From Glutamicibacter sp. PS (GTDB taxonomy: Bacteria > Actinomycetota > Actinomycetes > Actinomycetales > Micrococcaceae): DNA of 64,000 nt. Positions 7,564 through 61,061 of the stretch are shown piece after piece (the first letter of the stretch is position 1; each line of letters opens with the position of its first letter). The notes beneath the pieces are model-generated. The model saw only the letters and a list, made by a program, of their open reading frames with translations, was not told the origin of the DNA and did no database searches. Both the position numbers and the translations under genes were made by a program. The stretch spans positions 1,234,971 to 1,298,970 of the forward strand of contig JANCMB010000001.1 in assembly GCA_031317595.1 (NCBI GenBank), read 5' to 3'.

Positions 7564-7611
7564 CTACCGTTTGCCCCCACAGCGGACTGAATCCAACCAG
7601 CCATCAGCCCG

Positions 7612-9528: not shown

Positions 9529-9596
9529 AATACCTCACCGAAAATCGGAAACTTTAATAATTAGCCCGATAAAACAAGCTGATCGCAGTAAGTCAG

Positions 9597-9645
9597 CCAA
9601 AAGCCCAGATTGAAGTTTCAAGTTAACCGCAATCTGGGCTTTTGG
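9597..9645 (-). terminator. Intrinsic terminator inside the wec cluster
   Basis: Perfect 16-nt arms CCAAAAGCCCAGATTG (9597-9612) and CAATCTGGGCTTTTGG (9630-9645) with a 17-nt loop. The arms supply a T4 on either strand, so it could work in both directions. It sits between the stop of the 1672-aa gene (9679) and the start at 9528, splitting the cluster into two transcription units or attenuating the downstream one. Confidence 0.75.
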
Positions 9646-9678
9646 TTGGGCAACTATCGATTTCGTCGAACCATCGGT

Positions 9679-14697: not shown

Positions 14698-15260
14698 CAG
14701 ATGGTTCCTTCAAGAATTCCGGTCGCATACAGGTTTAAATATTGAAATTCTGCGTTCACTGGAGCGCCCTCTTCAAAGTCCTCATTGTTTACATATGGCA
14801 GGACAGCATCACAGGCACTTTTTATCCGCTTCACTGGATAGTTATCAGTTTCGCTTGAATCGATGAACCAAACGGGTATGCCATTCGTGCGAGATTTACG
14901 ACATAGTTCATAAACTTCTTCTCGAAGTCGAGCGCCCATTTCCTCGACAGTCGAGAACCAAGCTCCCTCTTGAAATGCTCCTCGATCAATGACGACAATT
15001 CCGGAGAAGCTATCAGTAATGAGTTCGTGGCTGAGCCCTGGCAGTGCTGTTTGTGTTAATATCTTATGTGACTCTAAATATCGCTGTAGCTTCGTAGACA
15101 AGACCCCGTATATTTGGACATCATCGAGCGAACGAGGACTTATTCTGAGTAATCGATCAAGGCTCACGCCCGTTGGATTCGACGGGACGCTTGGAGTCGA
15201 AGCACGTCCAATATTTGTGAGAACTTTGTCTAGTCCTTCTCGTGACGGAGTTATAGACAT
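14697..15260 (-). CDS. Hypothetical protein (187 aa) coupled to the giant glycosyltransferase
   Basis: Not recognised. A 187-residue soluble protein with alternating strand/helix character: GIVVIDRGAFQEGAWF and GIPVWFIDSSETDNYPV look like beta strands followed by loops, with a helix at EEMGARLREEVYELCRK between them. The start overlaps the stop of the 581-aa gene by one base (TAATG). Its own stop overlaps the next start by one base (TGATG), so it is translated with both. This suggests a stoichiometric partner or a separated domain of the adjacent glycosyltransferases. No catalytic motif can be named. Confidence 0.75.
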   Translation of the reverse strand: MSITPSREGLDKVLTNIGRASTPSVPSNPTGVSLDRLLRISPRSLDDVQIYGVLSTKLQRYLESHKILTQTALPGLSHELITDSFSGIVVIDRGAFQEGAWFSTVEEMGARLREEVYELCRKSRTNGIPVWFIDSSETDNYPVKRIKSACDAVLPYVNNEDFEEGAPVNAEFQYLNLYATGILEGTI

Positions 15261-17005
15261 TAGGATGATATCCCCTTTTCGCTAAGCATCGACCTCAGGT
15301 CCATAACTATTTGCTCGACATCTCCTAGTTGAGTCTTGACCGTGGCCGGTTTCAAGGACAGGCTACTTCCCGGTTCAATGAATGCCCACGATTTGGCCGA
15401 AGACCCCGCGTAGTCACTCCATTTCGAAGGGAGATAAGGATTCACGGCATGGTGCTCTCCGGAGCGAGCATCATTGACAATTAGGTAGTCAAAGTTCTTG
15501 GTGATTGCCAAGAACTTCAAATAAGGAAGGGAGCCGTTTAGTGAAACTTGCTTTTCGATACCGTATGCTCCGACGCCTTCTATGGCTCGATTAACCAAAT
15601 CATTAAATGCTACGGCCGACATTCCACGTGGTCGTGATCCAGTCTCGCCACTAGGAATATAGTTCGTGAAAACATGCAGGTGAACACATTCTCTGAGTGC
15701 CGCCGGTAACATACGAATTGCCGTCGTGACTTCGGTCAGGCCTCTGGTCGAATAAAATTCACCGAAATACGCGAGGTTCAACTTGCTACTATCAACTTGG
15801 TAATTAACAGTCTCGGTATCGTAATACTCAGAAGGTAAAGTGGGATGATTACTCACCACGCTATACCGTTCGACGCGCTCGCGTAGCTCTTCACTGTAAA
15901 TGTGTTCCAGCATCGTGGTCCGCTGATGCTCGTTAGTAAAAAGTATTGTATCCGCGTGGGCATAGGCTATTATCTCGGCGATACCAAATATCGTTCTATG
16001 CTCAGCAGGGACAGGCCCGTATCTGTCTTCAATGGGCTCAAGAAGTTCGAGCGAGAAATGATCTTCTTTGATAGTTCCACCCCTAGGCAGACCCTCAACA
16101 TCTAGTGACAACGGGTCAGAAAATTCTGCCGTCCACGGCAAATGTGGATACTTCCGTTTCACCAAGAGACCCGCATAATGCGAAGGTGCCCACATGGCTC
16201 TTGTGTAAAGGAGCTCGTAAGATCGCCCTGATGCGATTAGATCTCCTGCTAATCTTGAGGCGCGAATCGCATATCCCTTGAATGAGTCCCACGTCGCCCA
16301 AGAGGGTGCCATAGGCAGAAAGGTCCGCGAAGAGACGTACGGGGCAGCAATTCGCTCGATTGTAGGATCCACTTTTTTCTTATGAGCGAAACTGCAAGCA
16401 ATTACGTCATAGACCTTGGATGATTCGCGCAATCTCTTCGACGCTACGACGGCACCAGTATCAGTGTACGGCGAAAAGTTATATAGGATCGCTATCGCGT
16501 TCGGTTCACCTATTAGTCTCTTCCATTGAATCTGAACTCGATCTTGCGTAACAAGCTTGTCATTGACACGCACTCGCTCTTGGTATGGCAAAGCCGCCAT
16601 TTCCTGAGCAAGCATGCTATAAATACGATCTTCAAACAGATCGAATGAGCCTGTTTCCGGAGTGTTAAACAGGTTCTTCATCAGTTCTAGTCGCGAGAGA
16701 GTGGACAGAATCATTTCTGAGTCAACTCTATCGGGTTGCGCCCTTGGGCTTCCGTCGCGTGATGAAGACTCATCGATATACACATTGGAGCTCACGCTCA
16801 AGGCCTTCACTGCACTTGCTATTTCAGACGTCTCGGCGAGCGAGCAGATCAAAGTATCTTTTCCGTCCATGTCCTGCGACAAAATCGCAAGCGCGGCGGA
16901 TACGACATCGGCGGCCGTGGCTGAACGCCAATTCTCGTGTCTGAGCTTGGGCCCCCGTTTCTTTGCTTTAAAGTTCGGAAACGTGTCGATTTGAATAAAC
17001 GTCAT
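15260..17005 (-). CDS. GT-B-like protein of the wec cluster (581 aa)
   Basis: A 581-residue protein whose central and C-terminal parts resemble a GT-B glycosyltransferase. IAILYNFSPYTDTGAVVASKR looks like an acceptor-domain start. Then come SYELLYTRAMWAPSHYAGLL, LPWTAEFSDPLSLD, a hinge near DTILFTNEHQRTTML, and a donor-domain strand LNLAYFGEFYSTRGLTEVTT. The C-terminal half lacks a clear EX7E pair: YLIVNDARSGEHHAVNPYLPSKWSDYAG replaces it, so catalytic competence is uncertain. The first 180 residues are of unknown function. It is the first large gene after the small membrane protein and is coupled to the 187-aa gene by a one-base overlap. Confidence 0.78.
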   Translation of the reverse strand: MTFIQIDTFPNFKAKKRGPKLRHENWRSATAADVVSAALAILSQDMDGKDTLICSLAETSEIASAVKALSVSSNVYIDESSSRDGSPRAQPDRVDSEMILSTLSRLELMKNLFNTPETGSFDLFEDRIYSMLAQEMAALPYQERVRVNDKLVTQDRVQIQWKRLIGEPNAIAILYNFSPYTDTGAVVASKRLRESSKVYDVIACSFAHKKKVDPTIERIAAPYVSSRTFLPMAPSWATWDSFKGYAIRASRLAGDLIASGRSYELLYTRAMWAPSHYAGLLVKRKYPHLPWTAEFSDPLSLDVEGLPRGGTIKEDHFSLELLEPIEDRYGPVPAEHRTIFGIAEIIAYAHADTILFTNEHQRTTMLEHIYSEELRERVERYSVVSNHPTLPSEYYDTETVNYQVDSSKLNLAYFGEFYSTRGLTEVTTAIRMLPAALRECVHLHVFTNYIPSGETGSRPRGMSAVAFNDLVNRAIEGVGAYGIEKQVSLNGSLPYLKFLAITKNFDYLIVNDARSGEHHAVNPYLPSKWSDYAGSSAKSWAFIEPGSSLSLKPATVKTQLGDVEQIVMDLRSMLSEKGISS

Positions 17006-17069
17006 AATCTAGTCCGGCCGTCCGTTATGTTTTTTGAGATAAGTCGGCTATAAATCAATTCGGGCCGTA

Positions 17070-17465
17070 TTATTTGTCCAGTGCCTTGGAAAGTTGCGAT
17101 TGTAAGTAACGAATCTCTTCAATGGTTTTACTATGGAGCTCCCGGGCTACAGGACTCTGCTCGACAGAAATCGTCTTCACTGCTTTCTCCAACCGCTGAG
17201 CTGCTTTGTTTATCTCAGTGGTGTTCACAGAAGCATTGACAGGAATTGACTCTCGCATAACCTGCCGAACTACCGTTCGTAAATCATGCAAGTGAACACG
17301 CTGTCGGATAAGGAGCCATACCACCGTGGCTACAAGTCCTAGTCCTATAAGCATGACTGAAACTTCAACGCTTATCAGACCAATAATCGCGCTGGCGAGG
17401 AAGCAGAGAATGGCTATGACGGGCAATGTCCGAGCGACGGCTTTCGAACTTGCGATACTTTTCAC
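17070..17465 (-). CDS. Small membrane protein with coiled-coil tail
   Basis: A 131-residue protein. Two adjacent hydrophobic segments (about 13-31 VIAILCFLASAIIGLISV and 33-52 VSVMLIGLGLVATVVWLLI) form a helical hairpin. A hydrophilic, probably coiled-coil tail follows (INKAAQRLEKAVKTIS, EIRYLQSQLSKALDK). The start is GTG at 17465 with GGAG 5 nt upstream. It heads the minus-strand polysaccharide cluster and might scaffold the soluble glycosyltransferases at the membrane. That role is inference from position. The family is not recognised. Confidence 0.7.
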   Translation of the reverse strand: MKSIASSKAVARTLPVIAILCFLASAIIGLISVEVSVMLIGLGLVATVVWLLIRQRVHLHDLRTVVRQVMRESIPVNASVNTTEINKAAQRLEKAVKTISVEQSPVARELHSKTIEEIRYLQSQLSKALDK

Positions 17466-18643
17466 GAGGGCTCCATCCCAATCGTCACGATGAGTGTCTA
17501 ATCAAGTATATCGATTGGTCCCGGATCGTTCTCGTAACCGCGTGTCTAGCATTACCGTTATCAAGCAACCCTTCTAGGCCGCGATACATACTATGGCGGG
17601 TTCGCATCGTTAGACAACGACGTTTGCTCGGGGACCCACTAGCACCCCGGTGAGCCACACACTAACTCAGACGCATGTGACAAACTTGCAGATCATGCGA
17701 CAGATACGATTACTTGTTCCTTCAGACCGTGATTCACATCGCTTCAATAGTAGTGAAGCGTGTCATGCAACGGCCACCGTTCGACCGGTAGCACTTAGAA
17801 CTGCAAACTAGTCCGGACCTCGACCTTGACTAAGTCTTTCACTTGCGAATCGGGTCAAATTGAAGATTCGGACCCGGATCCCCCGAGTCGTGGCTAAATA
17901 GTCGATTTCATCAATCTGCAGCCTTAACAGGCTGCGAGTCGCTATATGACCCGGCATCTCCAATCCGGTTTTACCAGGCGCTTCATGACTTTGGGCGATA
18001 TTTCTAGCCCCAAAACACGCTAGTCACTGCTCAAGCAAGTTCTTTAGTTGCAAAAGACTTTTACTGTTTTCATCACTCCGCCTTGGATACCGCTTGTGAT
18101 TCTTCGCCGCTGCGGGGTTTTAGATCTCGGCACATCGGCGATAGGGCCTAATTAATAGTCATGCAGTATGCGTAAAAGCCCAGATGCTCAAGAGGCTGGA
18201 AGTTTGTAGCGTCGTGCTGGCCATAAAGAAAGCTGGTACTGGATGTACACTCACCACTTCCAAGAACGATGGCTAACTAACGTGCCATTTCAAGAGACGC
18301 GGACTCCGTGGCTGGCGCGGGTTTCCTACTGAATCTAATGTAATCGATCACTACTCAGTTATAGCCATTCCACCAGGCAGTCCGCTCAACGGCATCTGCA
18401 AGAAGACGTCAAGTGACCGCGTAAACGGCCGAACGACCAGTGAAGGAATTAATCCGGCTACGGTGTTGGTCAAGCGTGAAGTTGCGACGTTGGCAGTGCC
18501 GCGCTCGGTCGAGCTGGATCGCTCGTTGATGAGGAAACGTGGCTGATACCAAGCAGGAGACACGATTCAGGTTTGAGTAGGAAAGTTCAGTTTCGGTAAA
18601 GAAGCTGGTTAACTTATTGAGTCGCTCGCAACTGGAGGTCCCT
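17466..18643. other. 1.2-kb gene-poor region between divergent polysaccharide genes
   Basis: No convincing intact gene on either strand. Composition is more AT-rich than the flanking housekeeping genes. It must hold the promoters of the minus-strand wec cluster and of the plus-strand gene at 18644. A TATACT on the minus strand (17510-17505) is a possible -10 for the 131-aa gene, without a good -35. An open but start-less frame lies at 18277-18546 (separate entry). The rest looks like decayed or non-coding DNA. Confidence 0.5.
18277..18546 (+). pseudogene. Possible start-less gene fragment
   Basis: A frame of 89 codons stays open between TAA at 18274 and TGA at 18544 and has no usable start near its beginning. 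The translation has protein-like stretches (VIDHYSVIAIPPGSPLNGIC and TVLVKREVATLAVPRSVELD). It ends about 100 nt before the next gene and in the same direction. It could be the 3' remnant of a decayed gene. The family is not recognised and chance openness cannot be excluded. Confidence 0.25.
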
Positions 18644-20134
18644 ATGAAACGCACACGAAAACTTGGAGTATACGAAGGTGTCCACCCGTATATATACAAG
18701 AGCTTGGATCATTTTCTCGAATCTGATTTGGATACGGGCATTCATTCGTTTCAGAAGAATGGACGTATGGTAGATCTCTTGTTCGAAGCTCGTGATAGCG
18801 AGACACTGCTGGTGTTTTTCACAGCGGCAGTGGCACCTGGCAAGACGTGGCCATATTTTTCAGGAAGAGGGATCGCGTCGCGTACCGGTCATTCGTTGTT
18901 GGCTATTTCTGATCCGTCTATCGCAGCAGATAGTAGACTCTCAACGAACTGGACGCTGGGCGATTCAAACTACCAGCTTCATCACGATCTACCGGACATT
19001 ATTCGCAAGATTGCTGGCAACAGACGGATCATCTTCGTCGGTGCTTCAGCAGGAGGTTTCCCCGCGCTCTACTACGGGTCAAAGTTCCCAGATTCCGTTA
19101 GTTTGGTAATGAATCCTCGAACGAACGTCTTCACGCCTCCTTCGCATATTCAACATAGTGCAGAGAAACTGTTCCCTGGAATGACTGCTCGACAGATTTC
19201 CGAGCTGATACCTACTAAGTTAGGTCAAGCTATGAACACGGTAGTGTACTTTCAAAACTGCTCGGACGACCGTTATTATGGTTCGCATGCCATCCCCTAC
19301 CTGAGTAATCAGACTTCCACCGGTCGAGTTTATTGGAAACTTGGCGACTGGGGCGAAGGCCACGTCGCCCCCGGGTCGAAAGAAATCGCTGAGGCTATCG
19401 AGCATCTCAGCTCGGCCCCCGACTGGGCTACAGGTGCACTCAGATCGGGTGCGACTCTGCTTGCAGATATAGATGACTTGGTTGACGAACACCAGCGTCG
19501 CGGTTACGGATCACCTGAGCTAAATGAAGTAGCCCAAGATCTCATCACTGTTGGTGGCCTTGAGCAGCGTATTCTTTCGCTGACGCAAGATTTCGCCGCG
19601 CTCAAAACTGAAAACAAATTGCTTCGCGAAGACATTCAACGCTTACGACAGCCCAAAAAAGCAGCGCATATCCCTTCAGGATGCAAATTGGGCAAGAACG
19701 TCAACATTGATCCGACCGTTCACTTGATGGCGAATCCAACGTCCAACCCGATTGCGATCGGCGATAACACGAAAATTCTCCGCGACGCCGAGTGGATCGG
19801 TCCAATCTCTGTGGGCTCCGGATGCTACTTCAATAAAGGTTCTTACATCCGGGCAGAGGTCGCAATTGGAAACGACGTGCTGGTCGGGCCATTCGTTCGG
19901 TTTGTCACGGACACTCACCAAATCGGTCCTGCTGAAAAACGTGGAGGCCCCAACTACCGGACGTCGATCACCGTCGACGACGGAGTCTGGATTGGAGCAA
20001 GCGTTACTATCGTGGGCGAAGTAAAAATCGGTCGTGGAGCAGTTGTAGCGGCAGGATCCGTCGTTACCAAGGATGTGTCTCCTAATACCCTCGTCGGCGG
20101 AGTTCCTGCAAGGAAGATTAAGGATCTACCTTGA
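18644..20134 (+). CDS. Fused alpha/beta-hydrolase-like domain and hexapeptide-repeat acetyltransferase
   Basis: A 496-residue protein. Residues about 20-270 look like an alpha/beta hydrolase: IIFVGASAGGFPALYYGSKF carries a GxSxG nucleophile elbow, and the WGEGHVAPGS region could supply the histidine. A short coiled coil follows (residues about 312-343, EQRILSLTQDFAALKTENK). The C-terminal 145 residues form a left-handed beta-helix O-acetyltransferase with hexapeptide repeats: IAIGDNTKI, ISVGSGCYF, VAIGNDVLVGPFV, a catalytic-type histidine in TDTHQIG, and IGRGAVVAAGSVVTKDV. The ATG at 18644 follows GGAGG at 6-nt spacing; an in-frame TTG at 18617 has no such site. One chain thus joins a putative esterase to an acetyltransferase, probably for polysaccharide decoration. 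Confidence 0.82.
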   Translation: MKRTRKLGVYEGVHPYIYKSLDHFLESDLDTGIHSFQKNGRMVDLLFEARDSETLLVFFTAAVAPGKTWPYFSGRGIASRTGHSLLAISDPSIAADSRLSTNWTLGDSNYQLHHDLPDIIRKIAGNRRIIFVGASAGGFPALYYGSKFPDSVSLVMNPRTNVFTPPSHIQHSAEKLFPGMTARQISELIPTKLGQAMNTVVYFQNCSDDRYYGSHAIPYLSNQTSTGRVYWKLGDWGEGHVAPGSKEIAEAIEHLSSAPDWATGALRSGATLLADIDDLVDEHQRRGYGSPELNEVAQDLITVGGLEQRILSLTQDFAALKTENKLLREDIQRLRQPKKAAHIPSGCKLGKNVNIDPTVHLMANPTSNPIAIGDNTKILRDAEWIGPISVGSGCYFNKGSYIRAEVAIGNDVLVGPFVRFVTDTHQIGPAEKRGGPNYRTSITVDDGVWIGASVTIVGEVKIGRGAVVAAGSVVTKDVSPNTLVGGVPARKIKDLP

Positions 20135-20371
20135 CCAGGGCCAAGCGTGCCGCGATGCGACATCAAGTTAGAGCGGTTCCGCAACACGTCATGTATCGCT
20201 AATTTAACAACAAACTATTCGAAACTAGTCAAGTTCTGACGGATTAGACATATCTCCATTCCTCCGATGTGGACTGCAGGCAGGTACTTCTCCGTTATAT
20301 GCCTTCTATAACTTTTCTGTATCAATTACGCGAATATTCGGTTTTCCCGCCCAGTGAGTCCGCGATACGTG

Positions 20372-20611
20372 ATGGAATATAGGAATAGATTCCAACAACT
20401 AGAACTGGGGCATGTCATGTTGGCGAAGAGATTACTTGAACTGCAAAAGGAATATGCTTTGCACGAAAATACTATGGCTCTCTCTAGCACTCTAGGACTC
20501 ACTGTAGAGCGTACCGAAGAGCAAATAGTCTCCGAATATAACGAGGCACTACTCCAGCTTCTCGCCCAACATCTCGAACCAGAGAGTGATCGGGGAAATC
20601 CCCCAGTCTAA
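20372..20611 (+). CDS. Small hypothetical helical protein
   Basis: An open frame of 79 codons from ATG 20372 (possible GTG starts at 20354 and 20369). It is rich in Glu, Leu and Gln and likely all-helical: QLELGHVMLAKRLLELQKEY and IVSEYNEALLQLLAQHL. No clear ribosome site is present. The amphipathic pattern argues for a real coding past, but it lies in a region full of broken frames. Family and function are not recognised. Confidence 0.35.
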   Translation: MEYRNRFQQLELGHVMLAKRLLELQKEYALHENTMALSSTLGLTVERTEEQIVSEYNEALLQLLAQHLEPESDRGNPPV

Positions 20612-21554
20612 GGGTCATACTCTAGCTTCGTGAGCGACAATGCATCTGACGCTCACGGGGCCAACAATTTTAAGGCTACTTCGTCTTTCAGACGCCCCGC
20701 ATACGCCAGAAGATTCTTGGTTACTATCAATCGTTTGCATCGATCCAATGAGAGCGAAGGCGCTGGAAGGTGCGATAGACGCTGTTGCGGCCACAACAAA
20801 GGAATCATAGCTGTCAAGCATCGTCCACGCAACGAGTTAAAGTCGAAGTTCTTAGTTCCCTAAAATGTCCACCGGTTCAGACGATGGAGATCGAAAGCGA
20901 GATTCTAGATACTCCTCATCGGATATACCGTCGCATGATTATGTTGCTTCATATTTGGCGTGGAACGTCGAAGGTAAAATTCACATGGACGAAAGTCAAG
21001 CTAATCAATAAGGTCCAGCCCTGCCAAGTATTCCTAACAAATGGTTTGTTTAGAGCTAAATATCCAACTTTTGAGGCAGCTTGCCAAATTAGTTTCGTCG
21101 GCGGCAGATTAAGTGCTGTCGTCGCTCCAATACTACCGGCCACAGAAAACATGCTTATCCTCAAGTCAAGAGTCTCCGTGTTGGGAAACGCCCGATTGCT
21201 CGGCAATTCTAGAGTAACTATTTTGAGCTTTCTTTAGTCCGGTACGTCGCGCTCCCATAGCCCTGCAATTTTACTTGGCATTCGAATTTTATACGGTCCA
21301 CTCTAGCTGGCACGGTTCATACATTTGTAAACCTGACGTTTGAGAATGACTAAGACGTTTGTGTCAGGCACAAAAGCTCGTTGTGCCCGATTCTTCCATC
21401 GTCTGCGACAATCCATTGTCGACTTACCAACGACACATGCATGATTTAATTTCTTTAAAGTAATAAGAACATGTCTCAAATTCGCTCTAGTAAGCCTGCA
21501 AGCGTTTCAGTATGTTCTGTCGCCCTAGTTTGTAAGGTACCGACTTTTTACGCT
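20612..21554. other. Gene-poor, apparently decayed region before serA
   Basis: About 0.9 kb with only short, interrupted frames on both strands. Protein-like pieces occur in the plus direction at 20640-20810 (separate entry) and at 20865-21011 (48 codons, ending MDESQANQ then stop), in different frames. This is what a frameshifted relic would look like. No IS ends, tRNA or other recognisable element was found. Confidence 0.45.
20640..20810 (+). pseudogene. Short open frame, possible remnant
   Basis: Fifty-six codons from ATG 20640 to TAG 20808. The translation is protein-like: DSWLLSIVCIDPMRAKALEG followed by AIDAVAATTKES, a strand and then a helix. The frame continues for nine more sensible codons after the TAG, suggesting an in-frame stop in a decayed gene. 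The opposite strand is also open here, so coding direction is uncertain. The family is not recognised. Confidence 0.25.
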
Positions 21555-21587
21555 GAACTCCCGAATAGCAATGCTATTCGGGAGTTC
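21555..21587 (-). terminator. Hairpin terminator downstream of serA
   Basis: Perfect 15-nt arms GAACTCCCGAATAGC (21555-21569) and GCTATTCGGGAGTTC (21573-21587) separated by 3 nt, about 110 nt beyond the serA stop. The T-tract is poor on both strands (ACTTTC on plus). It may insulate serA from the decayed region on either side. Confidence 0.6.
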
Positions 21588-21695
21588 ACTTTCATAATCT
21601 GCCACGGCCGCTAAGCCGATTCGAGCTGAGACTCTGCGGCCATCTCCGGGCAAATTAATATAGTCTCAATATGGGCTCAACGAAATCGCGAGGGA

Positions 21696-23291
21696 TTAAT
21701 CGGCCAGATTCACTTCACGAGCCAAGCTCGCGCCAATCGCTGCGCCCACAACATCCAGCACGCCGTGCGGCAGCGCGCTATCAATGCTGATTACAGCTAG
21801 TGCCTCGGATTTCTTTTCATCCCGCGACACCTGCATACCTGCGATATTCACGCCCTGCTCCCCCAGTACGTTGCCGAGGCTTCCGACTACGCCTGGTCGA
21901 TCGGAATAACGCACGATGATCATGTGGTCAGTAATCGGAATTTCGATCTCATGCCCATTTACGCCGACCAGCTTTTCGATCTGCTTAGGACCGGTCAGGG
22001 TGCCTGAAACTGCCAGCTGAGTACCCTCGTTGGTGGAGCCCTTGATGGTGAGTTGGTTGCGGTACTCCGGCGAGTCAGAAGTCGTCACCAGTCGGGTGGC
22101 GACGCCACGTTGCTCCGCTAGCACTGGCGCGTTGACGTAGGAGACCTGGTCGGACACCACGTCCATGAAGGCACCCTTTAGGGCGGAGAGTTCCAGTGCC
22201 TTGACGTCGAGTTCCGCGATTTCACCGGCAACGACTACGTCGATGCTGGTAAGCGATCCGGTGGACAGTGCGTTGAAGATTCGTCCCAGCTTCTCGATGA
22301 GCGGGATGCCCGGGCGAACGTTCTCGTCGATGACGCCACCAGCCACGTTTACGGCATCGGGGACGAGTTCACCAGCCAGTGCCAAACGTACAGATTTTGC
22401 AACCGATACGCCGGCCTTCTCCTGTGCTTCTTCGGTCGAAGCACCGAGGTGAGGGGTTACGGTGACATTCTCGAATTCGAAGAACGGTAGGTCCGTGCTC
22501 GGTTCCTTCACGAATACGTCGATGCCAGCACCGGCAATCTCTTCGTTCTTCAGTGCCTCGTACAGTGCATCTTCGTCGACCAGACCACCGCGGGCGACGT
22601 TGATGACGAAGGCGCTCTTCTTCATCTTGGTGAAAGCGTCCTTGCCGAGCATACCAATGGTCTCGGGGGTCTTTGGCATGTGGATGGAAATGAAGTCGGC
22701 TTGCTCGAGGAGTTCGTCAAGAGTCACTAGGGTGACACCCAGCTGGGCGGCGCGCGCCGGAGTCACGTAAGGGTCGTAGGCGATAATTTCCATGCCAAAG
22801 CCCTGAAGTCGGGCAGCGACAAGGGCGCCAATGCGGCCAAGGCCGATGATGCCGGCCTTCTTTTCGTAAAGCTCTACGCCGGTAAAGGCACTACGCTTCC
22901 AGGCGCCGCCCTTTAGCGATTCATTGGCGGCCGGGATCCGGCGTGCCAGTGAGAGCACGTGGCCGACGGTAAGCTCGGCCGCCGAGATGATGTTCGAGGT
23001 CGGCGCGTTCACAACCATGACACCGGCTTGGGTGGCTGCCTTGATATCAACGTTGTCCAGGCCAACGCCGGCGCGGGCAATCACCTTGAGGTTTTTAGCG
23101 GCTGCAATGGCTTCGGCATCCACCTGGGTAGCCGAGCGCACCAGAATGGCATCTACATCGGCAATGGCGGACAGTAGTTGCTCTCGGTCGGCACCATTGG
23201 TTTCACGGATTTCGAAATCGGGTCCCAGCGCGGCGATAGTTGCCGGCGAAAGCTGTTCGGCCAGAAGAACGATTGGCTTGTTATCAGACAC
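21696..23291 (-). CDS. serA: D-3-phosphoglycerate dehydrogenase (long form)
   Basis: Oxidises 3-phosphoglycerate to 3-phosphohydroxypyruvate with NAD+, the first step of serine synthesis. The 531-residue length and domain order match the actinobacterial long form. A substrate domain is split by a Rossmann nucleotide domain (KKAGIIGLGRIGALVAARL). The active site shows FVINVARGGLVDE (Arg) and TVTPHLGASTEEAQ (His). An intervening domain about 320-450 is followed by a C-terminal ACT domain (MIIVRYSDRPGVVGSLGNVL) that normally binds serine for feedback control. The start is GTG at 23291 with GAAAAGG upstream. It is monocistronic between the two polysaccharide loci. Confidence 0.97.
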   Translation of the reverse strand: MSDNKPIVLLAEQLSPATIAALGPDFEIRETNGADREQLLSAIADVDAILVRSATQVDAEAIAAAKNLKVIARAGVGLDNVDIKAATQAGVMVVNAPTSNIISAAELTVGHVLSLARRIPAANESLKGGAWKRSAFTGVELYEKKAGIIGLGRIGALVAARLQGFGMEIIAYDPYVTPARAAQLGVTLVTLDELLEQADFISIHMPKTPETIGMLGKDAFTKMKKSAFVINVARGGLVDEDALYEALKNEEIAGAGIDVFVKEPSTDLPFFEFENVTVTPHLGASTEEAQEKAGVSVAKSVRLALAGELVPDAVNVAGGVIDENVRPGIPLIEKLGRIFNALSTGSLTSIDVVVAGEIAELDVKALELSALKGAFMDVVSDQVSYVNAPVLAEQRGVATRLVTTSDSPEYRNQLTIKGSTNEGTQLAVSGTLTGPKQIEKLVGVNGHEIEIPITDHMIIVRYSDRPGVVGSLGNVLGEQGVNIAGMQVSRDEKKSEALAVISIDSALPHGVLDVVGAAIGASLAREVNLAD

Positions 23292-48270: not shown

Positions 48271-51629
<3,359 letters not shown>

Positions 51630-51766
51630 CCTCTGTCCGATCGGCCAAGGCCCGCTAGCCGACTGGTATGCAATTTATCCGCGAACTAGCACAAGGTCGA
51701 GATTTGGGTGATAATACGAATAATCCCATTCAGGAGACATACCATCCACTTATTGCTGGAGAATCA

Positions 51767-52381
51767 GTGAAGAAATTCCTTGGTAAGGCCCTTGCGCTCG
51801 GCGCAGCGGCTGCCATTGCATTCGGTGGGGCAAATATCGCCCCCACCACCCCGGCGGCCGCAGCCACCGTATCGACCGCAGTAGTCGCCGCAAAGAAGCA
51901 GGCTCCGGTCACCATCAAGACCATTGGCAAGAAAACGGTTAAGGGTTCGGCCAAAGCAACCATCAAGCCCAGTTATTCCAAGGCTAAGAGCGTCAAGGTT
52001 AAGTCCGCGGTACTGACCGTCAAAAAGGGCAAGAAGACGGTCGCGAAAAACAAGAAGTCGGTCAAACTCGGCGCTGGCACCTACACGGTCACCACGACAG
52101 TCAAGTACACCGTCAAGGGCAAGAAGAGCACGGTAAGCAAGAAGCAGACCCTGAAGGTCATCAAGGCGAAATCGTCCTCGAAAAAGCGTTCAGTGAAAAT
52201 GAACGGTCAGGGATACTCCTGCCCAAAGGGCTATCCGGTCAAGGGCAACCGCACCGGCAGTAACAAGGAGTGGAAGTACCACGTTCCGGGCGGCCAGTAC
52301 TACAGCCGCACCAAGCCGGAAGAGTGCTTCAAAACCGAACGGGATGCCCAGAAAGCAGGCTACCGCGCTTCGAAGCGCTAA
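51767..52381 (+). CDS. Secreted Lys-rich protein with C-terminal sunset domain
   Basis: A 204-residue exported protein. The start is taken at GTG 51767 with GGAGA 5-6 nt upstream, because VKKFLGKALALGAAAAIAFG is a clear signal peptide; an ATG at 51668 would bury it. The mature part (about 45-145) is a Lys/Thr/Val-rich, probably Ig-like beta domain (VLTVKKGKKTVAKNKK, YTVTTTVKYTVKGKKSTVS). The last 45 residues read SCPKGYPVKGNRTGSNKEW, YHVPGGQYYSRTKPEECF and ERDAQKAGYRASKR. This is the small Cys/Gly pattern of the sunset domain seen in secreted actinobacterial and Bacillus proteins. The high positive charge suggests binding to anionic wall polymer. It stands alone after rmlA. Confidence 0.75.
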   Translation: MKKFLGKALALGAAAAIAFGGANIAPTTPAAAATVSTAVVAAKKQAPVTIKTIGKKTVKGSAKATIKPSYSKAKSVKVKSAVLTVKKGKKTVAKNKKSVKLGAGTYTVTTTVKYTVKGKKSTVSKKQTLKVIKAKSSSKKRSVKMNGQGYSCPKGYPVKGNRTGSNKEWKYHVPGGQYYSRTKPEECFKTERDAQKAGYRASKR

Positions 52382-52412
52382 TAGACCTCCCCCAAGACCA
52401 AGTAATAATATT

Positions 52413-52446
52413 TGGGGTCCGCCCGATCATGTGTCAGCGGACCCCA
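52413..52446. terminator. Hairpin between the sunset protein and the deaminase genes
   Basis: Perfect 10-nt arms TGGGGTCCGC (52413-52422) and GCGGACCCCA (52437-52446). Located in the convergent gap, 32 nt past one stop and 112 nt past the other. On the minus strand AAATATTATTAC follows, with little T-tract on either side. It probably serves both genes. Confidence 0.55.
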
Positions 52447-52557
52447 GATGCGACCATACAATCGGCTGAATACCAATGCTTAGAGCCCACCTCTGTCAGT
52501 CGAATCTTCGGCTTTCAAAATAAATTCACAAATTACTCGGGTGACGCAAAATTGATC

Positions 52558-54171
52558 TCATTTAATTAAATTTGATATCTCAGAGTCATTTTTCAGGAGT
52601 TCATCAACTCTCCGCTTAACTTGCTTTTCTCGCTTAAATGTCTGCCTAGATCCATGGTGAGGCGCAGATCGAAATTTGAGCTCAGATTTTGGTATCCAAG
52701 CGAAAACCCCATTAGGTTCTCTGAAGCGCGTGGATTCATCAAGTTCAAATACACGAGAAAAAATCCTGCGGGATGCACCTACAAATGGTTGAACCTTCAC
52801 TACGCCCGACTCATCCTTACCGAAACCGAGAGAGTCTTTATACATCTCCGGGGCAAGTGACTTAGGATATGGATCAACGTACACAATTCTAGTGATCCCC
52901 GAAGCTATAATAAGACGCATACACATATGGCATGGAAACGCAGTAACGTACATCGTGGCCCCTGTCGAGGAGACACCATTTCTGGCGCAATCAGTTATTG
53001 CCGACATTTCGGCATGAGTAACACGGCCAAACTCAATCAGTGATGCCGCCCGCGTTTTACTCAAAGGTCCGTTCTCAATTAAAGAGTCAACGTCATCCAA
53101 GCTAAGGGCTCGACACCCACAATGCCCCGCACCACATCCATCCGACGACATACGCAAATTTTCAATAACCTGCTGAACAACTTCTCTCAAAAGGTCATGA
53201 TTCGTGGCCCTATTGTTGTCGCGACCCAACTGGAAGTCGCGGGCATCAGGACTATCACCATTCCAATACTGACCTCCGCCCGCCTTGGGTACTTCATTCA
53301 CGCCGATAGCTATCACATCGCCATTTTCTCGCGCTATAACTGCGCCGACCTGCCGCCCAGAATCAGATGATCTGAGTGATGCAGCATACGCATAGAACAT
53401 ATTCTGCTCATCACGAGTTGGTGTCTCAAACGGCTTACCGAAAAGCAAGCCAATAGTTCTTTTGACCTCAGCTATGAGTCGGTGCCCCACTTCAATATAG
53501 AAATCCGCAAGTGAATTAGTATCTCTCACATTCTGTCCATATTTATTAGGAGACTTCTGATCACGTTCAAGCAATGCAGTTACATGAGGACCAAAGTCAC
53601 TTAGATTTGGGTCATGTCGTCGTAGCTTTGATTCCAGGACTACTGCACGATGTTCTTCCTTATCATTAACTCCTATGAGGGTGAAGCGTGAACCATATAC
53701 ATGACGAAGTAGATCGACCTCGGACGGATGCTTAAGGGTGTGAAGTATCCAGGCAAAACGAGGCTTCTCAGTATTTTCTCGTAAATTCTTACAGCCCTTT
53801 GAATCACTCAATTTCGAGCTTCCCGAACTAGTATTAGGATCGACCCTATCCCTTTTCTTCCCACGCCGGATGTGTCTAATTTCCCTTATCGCTACCGCTG
53901 CCACAGCGCTACCGTCACGCACGGCTTCCCGGAGTCGGTCACCAGCGTCCATCAACCGCTCAGACGAACTAGCTCCAGTCATCTTGCTAGCCTCGAGCAA
54001 ATTGCTGAGCCTTATAAACTTGGTTTCATAGCCAAAGTCCGCAAGCTCTTTCTTCATGCATTCACGGACGCGCTCGACATCAGCGCCAATCGGGGCAACG
54101 ATTCCGATGACGATATCCTGCTCGGAGGGCTCCTCCAATATGAATTGGCTTTTGTGATGTGACTCAGCCAT
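52558..54171 (-). CDS. Anti-phage dCTP/dCMP deaminase, AvcD type
   Basis: A 537-residue cytoplasmic protein. The N-terminal domain begins DIVIGIVAPIGADVERVREC (residues about 20-38), a P-loop-like strand/loop with no canonical GK[ST], then FGYETKFIRLSNLLE. The C-terminal half is a zinc cytidine/deoxycytidylate deaminase: SGRQVGAVIARENGDVIAIG, HAE with zinc-ligand His386 and catalytic Glu388, and PCHMC with zinc ligands Cys414 and Cys417 (TAFPCHMCMRLIIASGITRI). Length and order match the phage-defence deaminases (AvcD) that deplete dCTP/dCMP during infection. The ATG at 54171 follows AGGAGAGG; the frame is open 43 codons further. It lies next to insertion sequences in a low-GC stretch. Confidence 0.8.
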   Translation of the reverse strand: MAESHHKSQFILEEPSEQDIVIGIVAPIGADVERVRECMKKELADFGYETKFIRLSNLLEASKMTGASSSERLMDAGDRLREAVRDGSAVAAVAIREIRHIRRGKKRDRVDPNTSSGSSKLSDSKGCKNLRENTEKPRFAWILHTLKHPSEVDLLRHVYGSRFTLIGVNDKEEHRAVVLESKLRRHDPNLSDFGPHVTALLERDQKSPNKYGQNVRDTNSLADFYIEVGHRLIAEVKRTIGLLFGKPFETPTRDEQNMFYAYAASLRSSDSGRQVGAVIARENGDVIAIGVNEVPKAGGGQYWNGDSPDARDFQLGRDNNRATNHDLLREVVQQVIENLRMSSDGCGAGHCGCRALSLDDVDSLIENGPLSKTRAASLIEFGRVTHAEMSAITDCARNGVSSTGATMYVTAFPCHMCMRLIIASGITRIVYVDPYPKSLAPEMYKDSLGFGKDESGVVKVQPFVGASRRIFSRVFELDESTRFREPNGVFAWIPKSELKFRSAPHHGSRQTFKREKQVKRRVDELLKNDSEISNLIK

Positions 54172-55397
54172 TAGACCTCTCCTAGCACATGAAAATGGGA
54201 TGCAATCCCCGTTTCCGGGATTTTTCAAAGGTTCACCCACTGCGAAGCAGGTCAAATTTATAATCAGTAAGTCAGTAATATCATGAGCTGAGGACAGCAT
54301 TCAATACAGTGCCGCAAAGATACCTAGATTCGATGTCATATATTACTTGGCATATTGGAATCTTAGTCAACCACGGTTGCTGACCAGACAAAGGGATGGC
54401 CATTACTTGCTAAGTAAATAAGTAAAACCTTACCGGGTAACGTGCAATTCCAGGTCGCCGACCGACACTGAGGTCAGAAGGGAAAATGCTCGGGATATTG
54501 ACCGGCGAGAATAATTTCCTCGATCCTACAATTATCGAACCTTAAGCAACACGACCCCTTGTACTTCCTGCATGATACATCGCTTATTTACGGATCGCGC
54601 TTTAGTGGTATTGACAGAGGTGCAGATTATCTCTAGTTAGCCTATTTGAACGATTCCATGAATGACTTAGCTTCTTTGTCTACCCGAATCAGGAAGTGGT
54701 GGCGAGTTCTACGTTGAGACTTCTCCTGGTCGGTTCATTTACAAGACCGCGCAGATGCCAGGTCATCGCTTTGAGTTGTAGCATTATTCATCACTCATTT
54801 TATGTCACGTTTTGACGGACAAACCAGCAGAACGGACATGGCTAAGAACGTATTTCGATACCCAGCTACTCTAGGCAACCGTTCGTAATCACCGTCACTA
54901 ATCACCGGCCTCGCACTGGCTCATAGCACTTTTCGAAGGATACTGGATTGGACGCGTGATGATTCCTACTTATCCGAGATGCCTGAAATCAATCTAGCAT
55001 GATACACATTAAATCTACGTGGATGATTGGCCTGCTGTTTGGGATACCAGCCTGAGACAGGAAGTATGAAGTGACATCAACTGTAGCCCCACACGAACTT
55101 CAGAATGCAAAGTGCTACGGACTTTGAGGCAAACCCGCGCCGTTCATTGGCGTGCAATTCTTGGCACGTCGACAGTCTCGGAACACCTTCAGTCGGCCAA
55201 CAGATACAACTTGCATTCCGTACGATTTCTTGGAGTCGCTTACAGAAATTTCCATGTCTGAAACCGTGCCTAACACCTGCGTACGGGACTAGAGCTCGGT
55301 TCGTTCGTCCGAGACGCTAGGTTCCAAGGGGTAAAGCCTATTACAGATCCCTAGAATGTGGACGCTAGAAACTCAAGTTCGAGCCGGTCAGACTCTT
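54172..55397. other. 1.2-kb gene-free region upstream of the deaminase, leader and possible ncRNA
   Basis: No convincing gene on either strand; AT-rich. The deaminase leader contains a hairpin at 54205-54221 (ATCCCG-GAAA-CGGGGAT on the minus strand, a GNRA-type loop). A possible minus-strand -10 is TATAAA at 54262-54257. A plus-strand TTGACA (54611-54616) with TAGTTA 17 nt on (54634-54639) faces away from the deaminase and has no gene behind it. In the Vibrio AvcD system a small antitoxin RNA (AvcI) lies beside the gene, so this region is where an equivalent would be sought. Nothing here proves one. Confidence 0.4.
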
Positions 55398-56777
55398 TGT
55401 GTAAGACCCTAGTCACTGCGGGTATTCGGGGCTTCATAATACTCAGTTCATCTACGGTTCAATCCGCTCCGGGTAGGTCATCGCCAACTGCTTCAGGGCC
55501 TGCATCCAACCATTCGTGCCGGCCCCTTCAAGCAGACGGGAACCAGTTCCTGGGCGCGGGGTCCGACCCGTCTCATGAGCCCCCTTCAAACGCTCCCAGG
55601 CCCGCTTGTCCTCGAGACTACAGATCACCAGCCAGAGCATCTTCACCGCCGCCGCGTCCGAGGGGATATGGCCCCGGATCTTGGTGACCTTGCGCAACTG
55701 GTAGTTCATCGACTCAATCGCATTCGTCGTGTAAATGACCTTGCGCAGCTCGGGCCGAACTCCAGAAACGCGGTGAACCGCTCCCACGCGGTGCGCCACG
55801 TCGCCACCGCCGACGGATACTTTTCCCCAGCGCGCTGGCTTCGAAATCGTCGAGTGCTTGCCCGCTGATTCGATGCTCGGCGCCGTATAGATGCTCTTCA
55901 GCTGCTTGCTGACCGCCTGGCGGTCACTATGGGACACGAACCCGGTTCGCCGCCCTGGTCAGGTGCACCACGCAGGTCTGCACCGTCGCCCGCGCCGAGG
56001 TCGCCTCGATGGCTTCTTTAGAAACCGGTCAGCCCGTCACAGAAGGCGATCAGCACGTCCTTCACACCCCCCTGTTAGCCAGTTGGGCGCAGACTTGGGC
56101 CCAAAACTTCGCGCCTTCGTTCTCGGTGACCCAGATGCCTAGTTCGTGCTTGATGCCCTCCACAGTCACCCCCGATGGTCATATGGGCGGCCTTGTTGCG
56201 CACCTGATGCCTATCGCGGACCTTGATCACGATCGCATCTAGGTAGAGGATCGGGTAGAACTCCTCCAGCGGGCATTCCTGCCAGGCCGCGACCTCCTCG
56301 ATGACTTCGTCGGTGATCTTGCTGATGGTGTCGTGGGATAGTTGGGTGCCGATGGTGGTTTCCAGATGGTAGGCAATATCCCGCACCGTCATGCCTCCGG
56401 CGTCGAGGGAGATGATCATTTCATCCAGCCCTCCGGTTCGGCGTGAGCCCTTGGGCACCAGGGTCGGAGTGAAGGCCCCGGCCCGGTCCCTGGGGATCTC
56501 CAGGTCGATGTCCCCGGCCACCGTAGACACGGTCTTGGAGTAGGAGCCGTTGCGGGAGTCCGGAATGAACCGGCCTTGAGCCTCGCCCTGCTCGTAGCCC
56601 AGCTGGCTGCTCAGCTCGGCTTTCAGGCTGCGTTCTAGCACTGCCCGGTGATTTATTAGACGAATCCGTCTTTCCCGTCCAGCTGGATCTCGCCGCGATC
56701 GACATCCGGCCAAAGCTCGTCGAAGGCCCCGGATTCCCTTATGGGGTTGCCCGCAAGTAGTGGACACGTGTTCCAGC

Positions 56778-57689
56778 TCACGCGGCCAGCGTGAGCGCTT
56801 CTTCTTCCACGATCTGCAGCCCGCCCCTGAGAACCAGGGCCTGCTCGAACTCAACTGTCGGCACCATTCCTAGGCTCGTGTGCAGCCGACGCCGGTTATA
56901 GAACTCCTCGATCCACCGGCCCACCTCACGCTTGGCCTCCGCCCGACTCGCCCAGACCCGCCGGTCGTAGAACTCGGTCTTCAAAGTCGACCAGAACGAC
57001 TCGGCCATCGCGTTATCCCAACACACCCCGGTGCGTCCCACGGACTGCAACACACCTAACTCCCGGGACGCCTCCCAGAGCTGTGTCGAGGTGAACTGCG
57101 CGCCACGATCGGCGTGGAACACCACATCCGCCGGCAGATCGCCGCGCAGCGTGTGCGCCTTGTGTAGCGCCCGCTCCACCAGGTCCGTAGTCTGCACGTT
57201 GTCCATCGCCCAGCCCAGCACGCGCCGGGAACACCCGTCACGGACCGCACACAGATACAGCCACCCCTCCCGGGTACGTAGGTACGTGATATCGCTGATC
57301 CAGACCGCGTCCAACCGACCCTGGTCCCACTTCCGATGCACCCGATCCGGCAGGTGATGGGTATCCACCCCCGGGATCGTGGTCACCGGCCGGAACTTCC
57401 GTGGGCTGATCCCTTCAATCCCTTGCCGGCGCATCGACGCGGCCACGGTCTTGCGATCCACGCTCACACCCTCGCGACCCAGCTGTGCGGCCACCCTCGG
57501 TGCACCGTAGGTCCGGTAGGAATCGGTGAAGACCTCGGCGATTTTCTCATCGCGTTCGCGTTGTGCCACCGCCCGCGGGCTCGGCCCCAGCGCCTGACGC
57601 TCACACCAGGTGTAGTACCCGGAGGTCGAGACGTTTAACAGCCTGGCCATGCGCTTGATAGAGAAGTTTCCCTTCTCCGCGCGCATCAA
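56778..57689 (-). CDS. IS3-family transposase OrfB (DDE integrase)
   Basis: A 303-residue catalytic subunit. A HTH_21-like start (KGNFSIKRMARLLNVSTSGY) is followed by an rve integrase core with all three acidic residues: VWISDITYLRTREGWLYL, VVFHADRGAQFTSTQLW and AMAESFWSTLKTEFYDRRVW, then the C-terminal YNRRRLHTSLGMVPTVEFEQ. The start overlaps the orfA stop by 4 nt in the -1 frame. Upstream of its ATG the -1 frame is open (SPSERFEL), so the active OrfAB protein would be made by programmed -1 frameshifting, as usual in IS3 elements. Confidence 0.93.
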   Translation of the reverse strand: MMRAEKGNFSIKRMARLLNVSTSGYYTWCERQALGPSPRAVAQRERDEKIAEVFTDSYRTYGAPRVAAQLGREGVSVDRKTVAASMRRQGIEGISPRKFRPVTTIPGVDTHHLPDRVHRKWDQGRLDAVWISDITYLRTREGWLYLCAVRDGCSRRVLGWAMDNVQTTDLVERALHKAHTLRGDLPADVVFHADRGAQFTSTQLWEASRELGVLQSVGRTGVCWDNAMAESFWSTLKTEFYDRRVWASRAEAKREVGRWIEEFYNRRRLHTSLGMVPTVEFEQALVLRGGLQIVEEEALTLAA

Positions 57690-58009
57690 TTCGAACCGTT
57701 CGGACGGTGATGCTTCGACGCGAAGAAGGGGGCCGCTTTTCCCAAAAATTGATTGTCTTCGCGCAGCTCGAAGACCTCCCGGCGCAACCGCTTCAGCTCG
57801 GCACGCTCGTCCTCATCCAACGCTCCGGTTGGCTCGCCGGCACCGCGCCGACGGTCCTTCTCCGCCCGCCCCCAGGTCCCCAGGGTTTGCTCACCGACAT
57901 GGATCTCTCGCGACACCGCGGCAATCGATCGGCCCGTATCAATGACCAGGCCCGCGGCCTCGCGCTTGTACTCCTCGGTGAACTTCCGTCGTTGTTTCTT
58001 CTGCTCTGA
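57686..58009 (-). CDS. IS3-family OrfA (HTH DNA-binding subunit)
   Basis: A 107-residue protein (ATG 58009; GTG 58030 is an in-frame alternative). The N-terminal HTH_Tnp_1 domain reads RRKFTEEYKREAAGLVIDTG, then IAAVSREIHVGEQTLGTW. A charged leucine-zipper-like helix (ELKRLRREVFELREDN) multimerises the transposase. A slippery run TTTTTGGGAAAAG near its 3' end could promote the -1 shift into orfB. Confidence 0.9.
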   Translation of the reverse strand, partial: SEQKKQRRKFTEEYKREAAGLVIDTGRSIAAVSREIHVGEQTLGTWGRAEKDRRRGAGEPTGALDEDERAELKRLRREVFELREDNQFLGKAAPFFASKHHRPNGSN

Positions 58010-58215
58010 CATCCTTTCAGCAGGATTCACATCCCGCTAAATCGGGTGTCCACTAATTCAGGGTAGCCCCACTTACGGCGTTCATGGAGCTAAGGGCTAC
58101 GATGTTCTCGGCGATATCGGAGGCGTTGTCCACGGTGGGCTCTACCTGGTTTTCTGGATGGTCATTTCGGCTTCTTCCTAGTCACTTTCTATCAATTGAC
58201 TAGGGGTCGTACACA

Positions 58216-58586
58216 ATCCATCTAACAGGCTGTCAAGTTTCATGCTTTAAAGCAGTACCACCGGCTCCGATCAACGAGGCATAGGAACGAGTTATATGTT
58301 CTACCTAGAACCGGTGCCTTTGGCCTATTCACCGCGACACTCAGACGCCGCGGGCGTGAAGTTGCCACTGTGACCGGTCTCCATGACTAGCTCTAACATG
58401 GCGTCTCCCTGAGCTTCCATCTCTGCTCCCAAGGGGAATTTACACATAGAGAACCCTCAATGGACCCGTGGTCATCACATCGCAAACAGATTCCCGTGAT
58501 TCATGAACGAAACACCACTACGATGGGCCGATGACCCGTTCCACCCCAAACTACATACTTTGTTCGGGGCACACTTCTACTCCGGC
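58216..58586. other. Gene-free spacer between the IS element and the SDR gene
   Basis: About 370 nt with no open frame of note on either strand and no recognisable repeat, tRNA or IS end. The right part (58500-58586) may hold the SDR terminator, but no strong hairpin was seen. Confidence 0.4.
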
Positions 58587-59339
58587 CTAAACGGCGGTGT
58601 AGCCGCCGTCGACCAAGTGATAACTGCCGGTGATGAAGGACGCGGCGTCGCTAGCGAGGAACGCCACTAGCGAGGCAACCTCTTCCGGGCGACCCAGACG
58701 GCCACTGGGGTGCTTACCCACCAGTGCATCGTAGGCCGACTTATCCATCTTCTGGAGTAGCGGGGTGTCAATGAACCCCGGCGCGACCCTGTTCACTCGA
58801 ACCCCATCGGTGGCGTATTCCACGGCTGCCGTCTTGCTCAAGCCCACCACCGCATGCTTGGTGGAAACGTAGGCCGAACTACCGGCGAAGCCAACGGAGC
58901 CAAGGATAGAGGCCATGTTTACGATGGATCCGCCGCCTCCCTTGCTCATTTCTTTAGCCTGTGCGCGGGTCCCCTTGAAAACCGCATTGAGATTCACGGA
59001 AACAACCTTGTCCCAATCTTCGTCGGTCAACTCGCCGACCTTGGCGGAACGCCCGCCGATCCCGGCATTATTCACCCCGATCTTCAGGGGAGCCATGCCG
59101 GTGGCCGCCGCAATAGTCTGATCAATCACCCCGGTGGAGCTGGCATCACCAATTACCGCAACCGCTTGCCCGCCGGCAGCTTCAATCTGCTCAACGGTGG
59201 CCTGTGCCGCCTCACCGTTGAGATCTTGGACCACGACCTTCGTACCATTCGCTGCCAACAGCAAGGCAATCGCCTCTCCGATTCCGGATCCTGCACCGGT
59301 GACAATTGCCGAACGATCTGCCACTTCATACTGAGCCAT
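58587..59339 (-). CDS. Short-chain dehydrogenase/reductase
   Basis: A 250-residue classical SDR oxidoreductase. The cofactor motif TGxxxGIG is in SAIVTGAGSGIGEAIALLLA, the NNAGIGGR stretch follows, and the catalytic Ser-Tyr-Lys lie in NMASILGSVGFAGS and AYVSTKHAVVG. RVNRVAPGFIDTPLLQKM and ASFITGSYHLVDGGYTAV complete the fold. A conserved acidic residue after beta-2 (VVVQDLNGEAAQ) suggests NAD+ preference. The ATG at 59339 starts the conserved part; the frame is open upstream for 44 codons without a ribosome site. Substrate unknown. No operon partner. Confidence 0.92.
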   Translation of the reverse strand: MAQYEVADRSAIVTGAGSGIGEAIALLLAANGTKVVVQDLNGEAAQATVEQIEAAGGQAVAVIGDASSTGVIDQTIAAATGMAPLKIGVNNAGIGGRSAKVGELTDEDWDKVVSVNLNAVFKGTRAQAKEMSKGGGGSIVNMASILGSVGFAGSSAYVSTKHAVVGLSKTAAVEYATDGVRVNRVAPGFIDTPLLQKMDKSAYDALVGKHPSGRLGRPEEVASLVAFLASDAASFITGSYHLVDGGYTAV

Positions 59340-59605
59340 GCTGGTCTCACTTTCTGTTCGAAGATGGTCACGGAATACCCGTTGGCCTTGTAATGTCGAC
59401 GCTACTCCCGCCGCCGATCGAACGCGATGACTCACCCGACAACATTCAGTCTGCTGCATCACGCCGACCAAAACTCGTACCGAGCCCTCTACGCAGAGAC
59501 CTGACGTATCGACACATTCTTGGAGCTCAGTGAATGGCTTCGTCTAGGGGCAAAATCGTTATACTGGCTGTCACGATGCTCGATAGTCCAGCTTCAAGGA
59601 GCCTC

Positions 59606-59866
59606 ATGAGCGTGAATCCAGTTGTTCCGTGGCAAACCCAAATACCTGGCTACATCTTGACCGCGATCCTACTTGGACTAATCATCGTGGCCTTCGCCAT
59701 GCTTCTGGCCCACCGGCACAGACCACTCGGTATTCGAATCGCGCTCGGCATCCTAGTCCTGGGCTTGCCCTATGTCGGGGCCGTGGTCAGCATCTTGGTC
59801 TGTCGTTATTGGTCCAACAGTTTGCCTTCGAAGTTATCCTCGAGCTCGGAGGGCTCACGGCACTGA
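59606..59866 (+). CDS. Small PLDc_N-type membrane protein
   Basis: An 86-residue protein with two membrane helices (YILTAILLGLIIVAFAMLLA and IALGILVLGLPYVGAVVSIL) joined by a short basic loop RHRPLG. The second helix with its G-P-Y and the following VCRYW resemble the PLDc_N (phospholipase D-nuclease N-terminal) family of small actinobacterial membrane proteins of unknown role. The ATG at 59606 has AAGGAG just upstream; a longer frame from 59534 is not supported by a ribosome site. It is convergent with ilvC. Confidence 0.7.
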   Translation: MSVNPVVPWQTQIPGYILTAILLGLIIVAFAMLLAHRHRPLGIRIALGILVLGLPYVGAVVSILVCRYWSNSLPSKLSSSSEGSRH

Positions 59867-59963
59867 CTTCTGACTCACATGTCAACTGCGCTTGAAAGCA
59901 CTCGTGCACGCTTAGCACGCGATTGAGGGCCCTGCACTTCTTCTCAGCACGAGGTTTAAAAAA

Positions 59964-59993
59964 GGCATCCGACCGCATATGCGGTCGGATGCC
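59964..59993 (-). terminator. Rho-independent terminator of ilvBNC
   Basis: A perfect 30-bp palindrome: GGCATCCGACCGCAT and its complement. On the minus strand it is followed by TTTTTTAAACC. It lies 30 nt past the ilvC stop. Confidence 0.92.
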
Positions 59994-60023
59994 TTCGTGA
60001 GATGTAGCTACTCGCGCTGCAGG

Positions 60024-61061
<1,038 letters not shown>

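Follow-up and report, generated by a model that had tools for sequence, protein, structure and literature searches.

A probable stand-alone anti-phage deoxycytidine-nucleotide deaminase on a small mobile insert in Glutamicibacter sp. PS

According to published accounts, the deaminases of tested relatives remove dCTP and dCMP, are kept in check by an RNA, AvcI, and are freed when a phage stops host transcription (PMC10511110, PMC12409362, PMC9455884); for the tested Vibrio relative, transcription shut-off is reported to activate AvcD and to deplete dCTP and dCMP (PMC10511110). Here, we compare with these systems a gene, P0002, from the window—the whole 64,000-nucleotide stretch of DNA that was analysed. 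We consider it very probable that the gene encodes a stand-alone anti-phage deoxycytidine-nucleotide deaminase that would starve phage of dCTP, carried on a small mobile insert. As a kind it is ordinary: a distant, separate branch of a described family.

The gene and its two-domain protein

The gene and the parts of its product are as follows, with the limits of both domains approximate and those of the N-terminal domain taken from a structural model.

52558..54171, minus strand: putative anti-phage dCTP/dCMP deaminase gene P0002, 537 aa (open reading frame and family profiles)
54176..54183, minus strand: Shine-Dalgarno-like AGGAGAGG, read directly, just before the ATG at 54171
54079..54105, minus strand: GIVAPIGAD, a degenerate P-loop, residues 23-31 (alignment)
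53437..54120, minus strand: N-terminal domain, about residues 18-245, with an adenylate-kinase-like P-loop fold (AdkA/UPF0200) whose loop is degenerate (profile and Foldseek)
52732..53415, minus strand: C-terminal zinc deaminase domain, about residues 253-480 (PF00383 and Foldseek)
53008..53016, minus strand: HAE, residues 386-388, present in all 49 other aligned sequences
52921..52935, minus strand: PCHMC, residues 413-417, with P413, C414, H415, and C417 in all 49 others

The open reading frame runs on the minus strand from an ATG at 54171 to 52558; the earlier note had placed it exactly and left the strand unsaid, and the plus-strand reading of 52558-54171 contains stops throughout. The frame stays open as far as an earlier in-frame ATG at 54300, which would give a 580-aa form. 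Because matches to relatives at most loci start at residues 6-19 when counted from 54171, we infer that this ATG is the likelier start. The description of the gene as AT-rich stands: its GC content is 47.5%, with 46.4% in the 1.2 kb upstream, against 61% in the two flanks, and its third-position GC is 0.43 versus 0.63 for the nucleotidyl-transferase gene at 50745-51629. Elsewhere in the window, 16 kb at 6000-22000 has 49% GC versus about 60% across much of the remainder.

Profile searches against anti-phage dCTP deaminase families, which the earlier note had proposed as a check, returned full-length matches of a strength far beyond chance. With the 580-aa form as query in the PADLOC, NCBIfam, and Pfam scans, the PADLOC dCTPase model matched residues 46-570 over profile positions 139-552 of 630 (E 1.7e-141, 471.2 bits) and was the sole PADLOC family matched up to E 0.1, while the NCBIfam model for anti-phage dCTP deaminase, NF041025, was covered from 2 to 434 of 437 positions (E 3.1e-117, about 392 bits). 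The latter score misses the curated equivalog cut-off of 400 bits by about 8 bits. Such a shortfall is usual for the class in our sample of 394 genomes, where NF041025 matches 11 at E<=1e-30 and reaches its cut-off in none. NCBI's own rule would not name the protein automatically, and its assignment rests on other features. Pfam returned deaminase families alone, all in the C-terminal half (PF00383, E 1.2e-20). Housekeeping dCMP deaminases were not the best matches, the ComEB-type model (TIGR02571) scoring 56.9 bits, far below its cut-off of 219.45. By sequence, the protein belongs over its full length to the known family of anti-phage dCTP/dCMP deaminases, in line with the two-domain assignment that the note had made, and its reading as a defence deaminase is well supported by homology. 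Identity to relatives is 27-46% in two alignments, and given this distance its substrate and trigger may differ from theirs.

The zinc site (HAE...PCxxC) is intact in the alignments, with both motifs at the residues that the note had given, and H386, A387, and E388, like P413, C414, H415, and C417 of the second motif, are common to all 49 other sequences. From the roles of these residues in the superfamily, H386, C414, and C417 would be zinc ligands and E388 the proton shuttle. More broadly, the protein keeps the consensus residue at 58 of the 61 highly conserved positions of the 50-sequence alignment (those with the same residue in at least 88% of the other 49), deviating at 411 (A in place of T), 429 (I in place of V), and 433 (D in place of E).

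The glycine motif of the N-terminal domain, GIVAPIGAD, lacks the GK[ST] by which an active P-loop kinase is recognised. The note had pointed out this absence, and it is normal for the family: none of the 47 readable rows (of 50) carries GK[ST]. A profile built from ten relatives matched AdkA-like kinases (3h0k/3lw7, E 2.2e-5) and dCMP deaminases. Structure prediction, a further check that had been proposed, agrees—the AlphaFold2 model (pLDDT 82.7, pTM 0.81), based on a 31-sequence alignment that omitted the near-duplicates L084, L087, L095, and L103, joins a predicted adenylate-kinase-like domain to a dCMP-deaminase domain. Foldseek matched this model to dCMP deaminases (best E 2.8e-8), to the bifunctional dCMP/dCTP enzyme of PBCV-1 (7fh4, E 8.4e-8), and to 3h0k (E 3.6e-5, TM 0.74 by target length, probability 1.00). 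Two insertions set the protein apart. At about residues 103-134 it has the longest insertion at that place among 16 aligned sequences, with pLDDT under 50 at residues 115-133. The two halves of the deaminase domain are separated by a Cys/His-rich block, CGAGHCGC (residues 346-353, window 53113-53136; pLDDT 51-64), that is absent from the 49 other aligned sequences and is possibly an extra metal site.

Distribution and genomic setting

Within its genus, the gene was found in 1 of 18 genomes. Wider samples, each of which takes in the window's own genome, gave 104 of 395 genomes at E<=0.001 for the family, 4 of 396 at E<=1e-20 for the order, and 2 of 396 at E<=1e-40 in a profile search of the phylum. 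In the family sample both domains were matched in G000 and G308 alone; the other matches, short and centred on the zinc site, are most likely other deaminases. Two-domain relatives occur in genomes of the same family and order, in Arthrobacter liuii (the nearest named), and on plasmids of Azospirillum, E. coli, Klebsiella, and Vibrio. Among plasmid records, 74 of 72,556 matched, and in 47 of these a single place spans 80% or more of the query. Phage records matched more often (1,206 of 50,697), 2 of them covering 80% or more of the query; the others, among the matches listed, cover about one third of it and are mostly annotated as dCMP deaminase. Scanning IMG/VR with the single protein gave no matches, and scanning with an alignment gave 75 loci, from which 33 contigs, each with a two-domain relative of at least 430 aa, were used.

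A tree of 50 sequences (leaving off L065, L067-L071, L078, L105, L111, L112, and L115-L153, which are redundant copies from a single branch or else incomplete, split, or short matches) groups the window protein with G697, G308, and Arthrobacter liuii with support of 0.994. The gene thus adds a separate branch to a known defence by nucleotide depletion, and does so in bacteria among which our searches rarely found the family. Beside the Arthrobacter liuii deaminase (L003:3462-7387), two large open reading frames have partial PADLOC matches to MADS (mad3, E 8e-26 and 3e-25).

Comparison across the genus outlines the setting of the gene.

52383..60024, no strand assigned: whole insert, with the deaminase gene, an AT-rich stretch, nested insertion sequences, and an SDR gene at 58587-59471 (genus comparison)
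54172..55380, no strand assigned: 1.2-kb AT-rich stretch upstream of the deaminase, without a convincing gene or known RNA (scans)
about 55381..58237, minus strand: IS256-family element, broken in two by an IS3-family element (about 56739-58074; Pfam and sequence)

The left border gene, with a sunset domain (51668-52381), is present in 17 of 18 genus genomes, and the right-hand one, which encodes 433 aa without a Pfam or NCBIfam match, in all 18. In the 16 other genomes that have both, the two lie 116-259 bp apart in nine, 937-970 bp in three, and 1.7-3.1 kb in four; in the window the distance is 7.6 kb. The shorter spacing elsewhere in the genus marks 52383-60024 as an insert at a variable site. 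Apart from the deaminase, the genes recognised within it are transposases and the SDR gene and include no defence gene, a point against the defence reading. This 7.6-kb insert, compared with 116-259 bp in 9 of 16 comparable relatives, together with presence in 1 of 18 genus genomes, supports acquisition by transfer on a small mobile insert, as the earlier note had suggested, and the nested insertion sequences it had described beside the gene are borne out by the split IS256-family element.

The note had also seen a surface-polysaccharide locus nearby, and rhamnose-type genes (Pfam) do lie at 48271-51629, with the sunset-domain gene between them and the deaminase. Its further suggestion, that surface and intracellular defence would be neighbours here, is weak: relatives carry other inserts at this variable site, and the insert does not include the rhamnose-type genes. 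We also considered whether the site is a defence hotspot and rejected this. At the same site, relatives (L157-L163) carry a methyltransferase, a Cons_hypoth698 and DsbA-like pair, or proteins (420 aa, 438 aa, and others) with no Pfam match above cut-off. Three of five such proteins, run through PADLOC, gave no match, so that the site between the sunset-domain gene and the 433-aa gene counts as a variable site rather than a defence hotspot.

The upstream stretch and small open reading frames in relatives

In the 1.2-kb stretch upstream of the deaminase, Rfam gave no match up to E 1, there were no tandem repeats, and promoter-like and terminator-like sites occurred at shuffle level. Alignment with the three nearest relatives revealed no conserved sequence by eye, plasmid blastn gave no match, and the stretch has no further copy in its own genome. 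Of 24 windows of 120 nt tested for folding (the first four lying wholly or mostly within the insertion sequence), one folds well: 54712-54831, minus strand, 540-660 nt upstream of the start, with z -2.93 over 60 shuffles and z -2.39 over 200, where 4 of 200 were as good—0.02 for one window, and not significant after correction for 24. It is the first place to look for a regulatory RNA. Scanning both strands at the locus gave no convincing candidate for a partner open reading frame. In the strict AvcID sense of a toxin with an RNA antitoxin, the term 'AvcD-type', which the note had applied, is therefore unsupported: these searches revealed neither an RNA that is AvcI-like or clearly structured, nor a tandem repeat, nor a small partner frame, although a diverged RNA could be missed. 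This sharpens the question of how the deaminase stays off where no RNA like that of Vibrio is visible.

Small open reading frames recur beside the deaminases of some relatives. Random ones are common in the scanned stretches, so only conserved groups count. Of 53 loci with sufficient sequence upstream, 7 have, immediately before the deaminase and in its orientation, a frame of 57-79 codons ending in Trp (7 further loci have too little sequence, and L102 and L103 are near-identical). All seven fall on the branch of the E. coli and Klebsiella proteins, where an eighth member with upstream sequence, L110, has a frame of the same size with another ending. Three E. coli loci off the tree (L167, L168, and L169) add three more upstream frames, one of them Trp-ending, so that the same-strand loci are L074, L077, L100, L102, L103, L110, L113, L156, L167, L168, and L169, with Trp endings in 8 of 11. 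A divergent frame of about 57-63 aa, starting 56-115 nt upstream of the deaminase, occurs in two IMG/VR groups and is alike within each: L097/L098, and L093/L094/L096, the latter branching with Pararhizobium L076.

Differences between related small frames are concentrated at third codon positions: 146 of 309 in four of seven pairs (one-third expected, p 3e-7) and 266 of 608 over all seven, which are not independent (p 6e-8), both counts coming from protein-level alignments that favour a coding-like result. DNA-level alignment of the same four pairs gave 133 of 291 (p 8e-6), and of L101/L076 28 of 94, with no excess. The dN/dS ratio, computable in three of seven pairs, was about 0.09 for L094/L096 and 0.19 for L074/L113, both with saturated dS, and 0.29 for L077/L156. 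Six of the peptides, searched against Pfam and NCBIfam, matched no family over cut-off. The same-strand frame could specify a partner protein of about 60 aa, or it could overlie the region of an RNA antitoxin. The minimum functional AvcI is reported to be about 171 bases (PMC10511110), which is about the length of the small frames; spectinomycin, blocking translation, reportedly did not activate AvcD (PMC10511110), which speaks against a labile protein. Titles and abstract openings among the matches listed in the literature name no such small frame. The window gene has none beside it. The conserved frames beside relatives make the question of the deaminase brake directly testable.

Function, rival readings, and known systems

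By analogy with tested relatives, the C-terminal zinc domain would convert dCTP and/or dCMP to dUTP/dUMP and, once switched on during infection, would starve the phage of dCTP; reaction and defence are both probably as in those relatives. The N-terminal adenylate-kinase-like domain is most likely a sensor or brake, acting through nucleotide, RNA, or oligomerisation, rather than a kinase. The gene itself would have arrived on the small mobile insert. Going further, one might picture the window branch as a self-contained deaminase with neither an RNA nor a protein antitoxin, in which the degenerate domain directly senses a cue of infection, a nucleotide imbalance, and unlocks the deaminase, while other branches pair with a translated partner of about 60 aa, so that a single RNA-antitoxin model would not cover the family; we regard this extension as doubtful.

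An AvcID-type (type III) toxin-antitoxin arrangement, with a short RNA from the 1.2-kb stretch inhibiting the deaminase until phage-induced transcription shut-off removes it, is how the relatives work, and the stretch is long, shows no codon-position GC bias, has room for an RNA of about 280 nt, and includes the well-folding segment at 54712-54831. A diverged RNA could escape such searches; however, the fold is not significant over 24 windows, and the blank Rfam and repeat searches, the lack of upstream conservation with the three nearest relatives, and the shuffle-level promoter-like and terminator-like sites leave this arrangement rather unlikely. The split IS256 transposase next door and the geneless AT-rich stretch would suit a decayed or silent passenger of the insert, but an intact open reading frame, a strong ribosome site, and the retention of the catalytic residues and of nearly all highly conserved positions make decay very improbable. 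More improbable still is a role in housekeeping or salvage, as a dCMP deaminase that carries a fused domain. Although the catalytic domain has the dCMP-deaminase fold, the full-length matches are to defence models, the ComEB score is far below its cut-off, and 17 of 18 genus genomes have no match. The genome also has its own housekeeping Dcd elsewhere (205.6 bits, cut-off 92.8), which makes the window gene an extra one and a metabolic role unlikely.

The stand-alone defence deaminase that we favour can be set beside four kinds of known protein. It shares its family with AvcD of the Vibrio AvcID system, as judged by the family model, and differs in that no AvcI-like RNA was detected upstream. 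With AdkA-like SSO1041 (3h0k, 3lw7) it shares the fold of the N-terminal domain, which in the window protein lacks GK[ST] and is joined to a deaminase. The PBCV-1 bifunctional dCMP/dCTP deaminase (7fh4) and the T4 dCMP deaminase (1vq2) have the same zinc deaminase fold and HAE/PCxxC site, in chains of 140-193 residues without an N-terminal kinase-like domain. The proteins described by NF041025 and PADLOC dCTPase match it at full length, in both domains and in the catalytic residues; from these, the window protein is distinguished by a score 8 bits under the NF041025 cut-off, by 27-46% identity to relatives, and by its private Cys/His-rich insertion at 346-353 and long low-confidence insertion at about 103-134.
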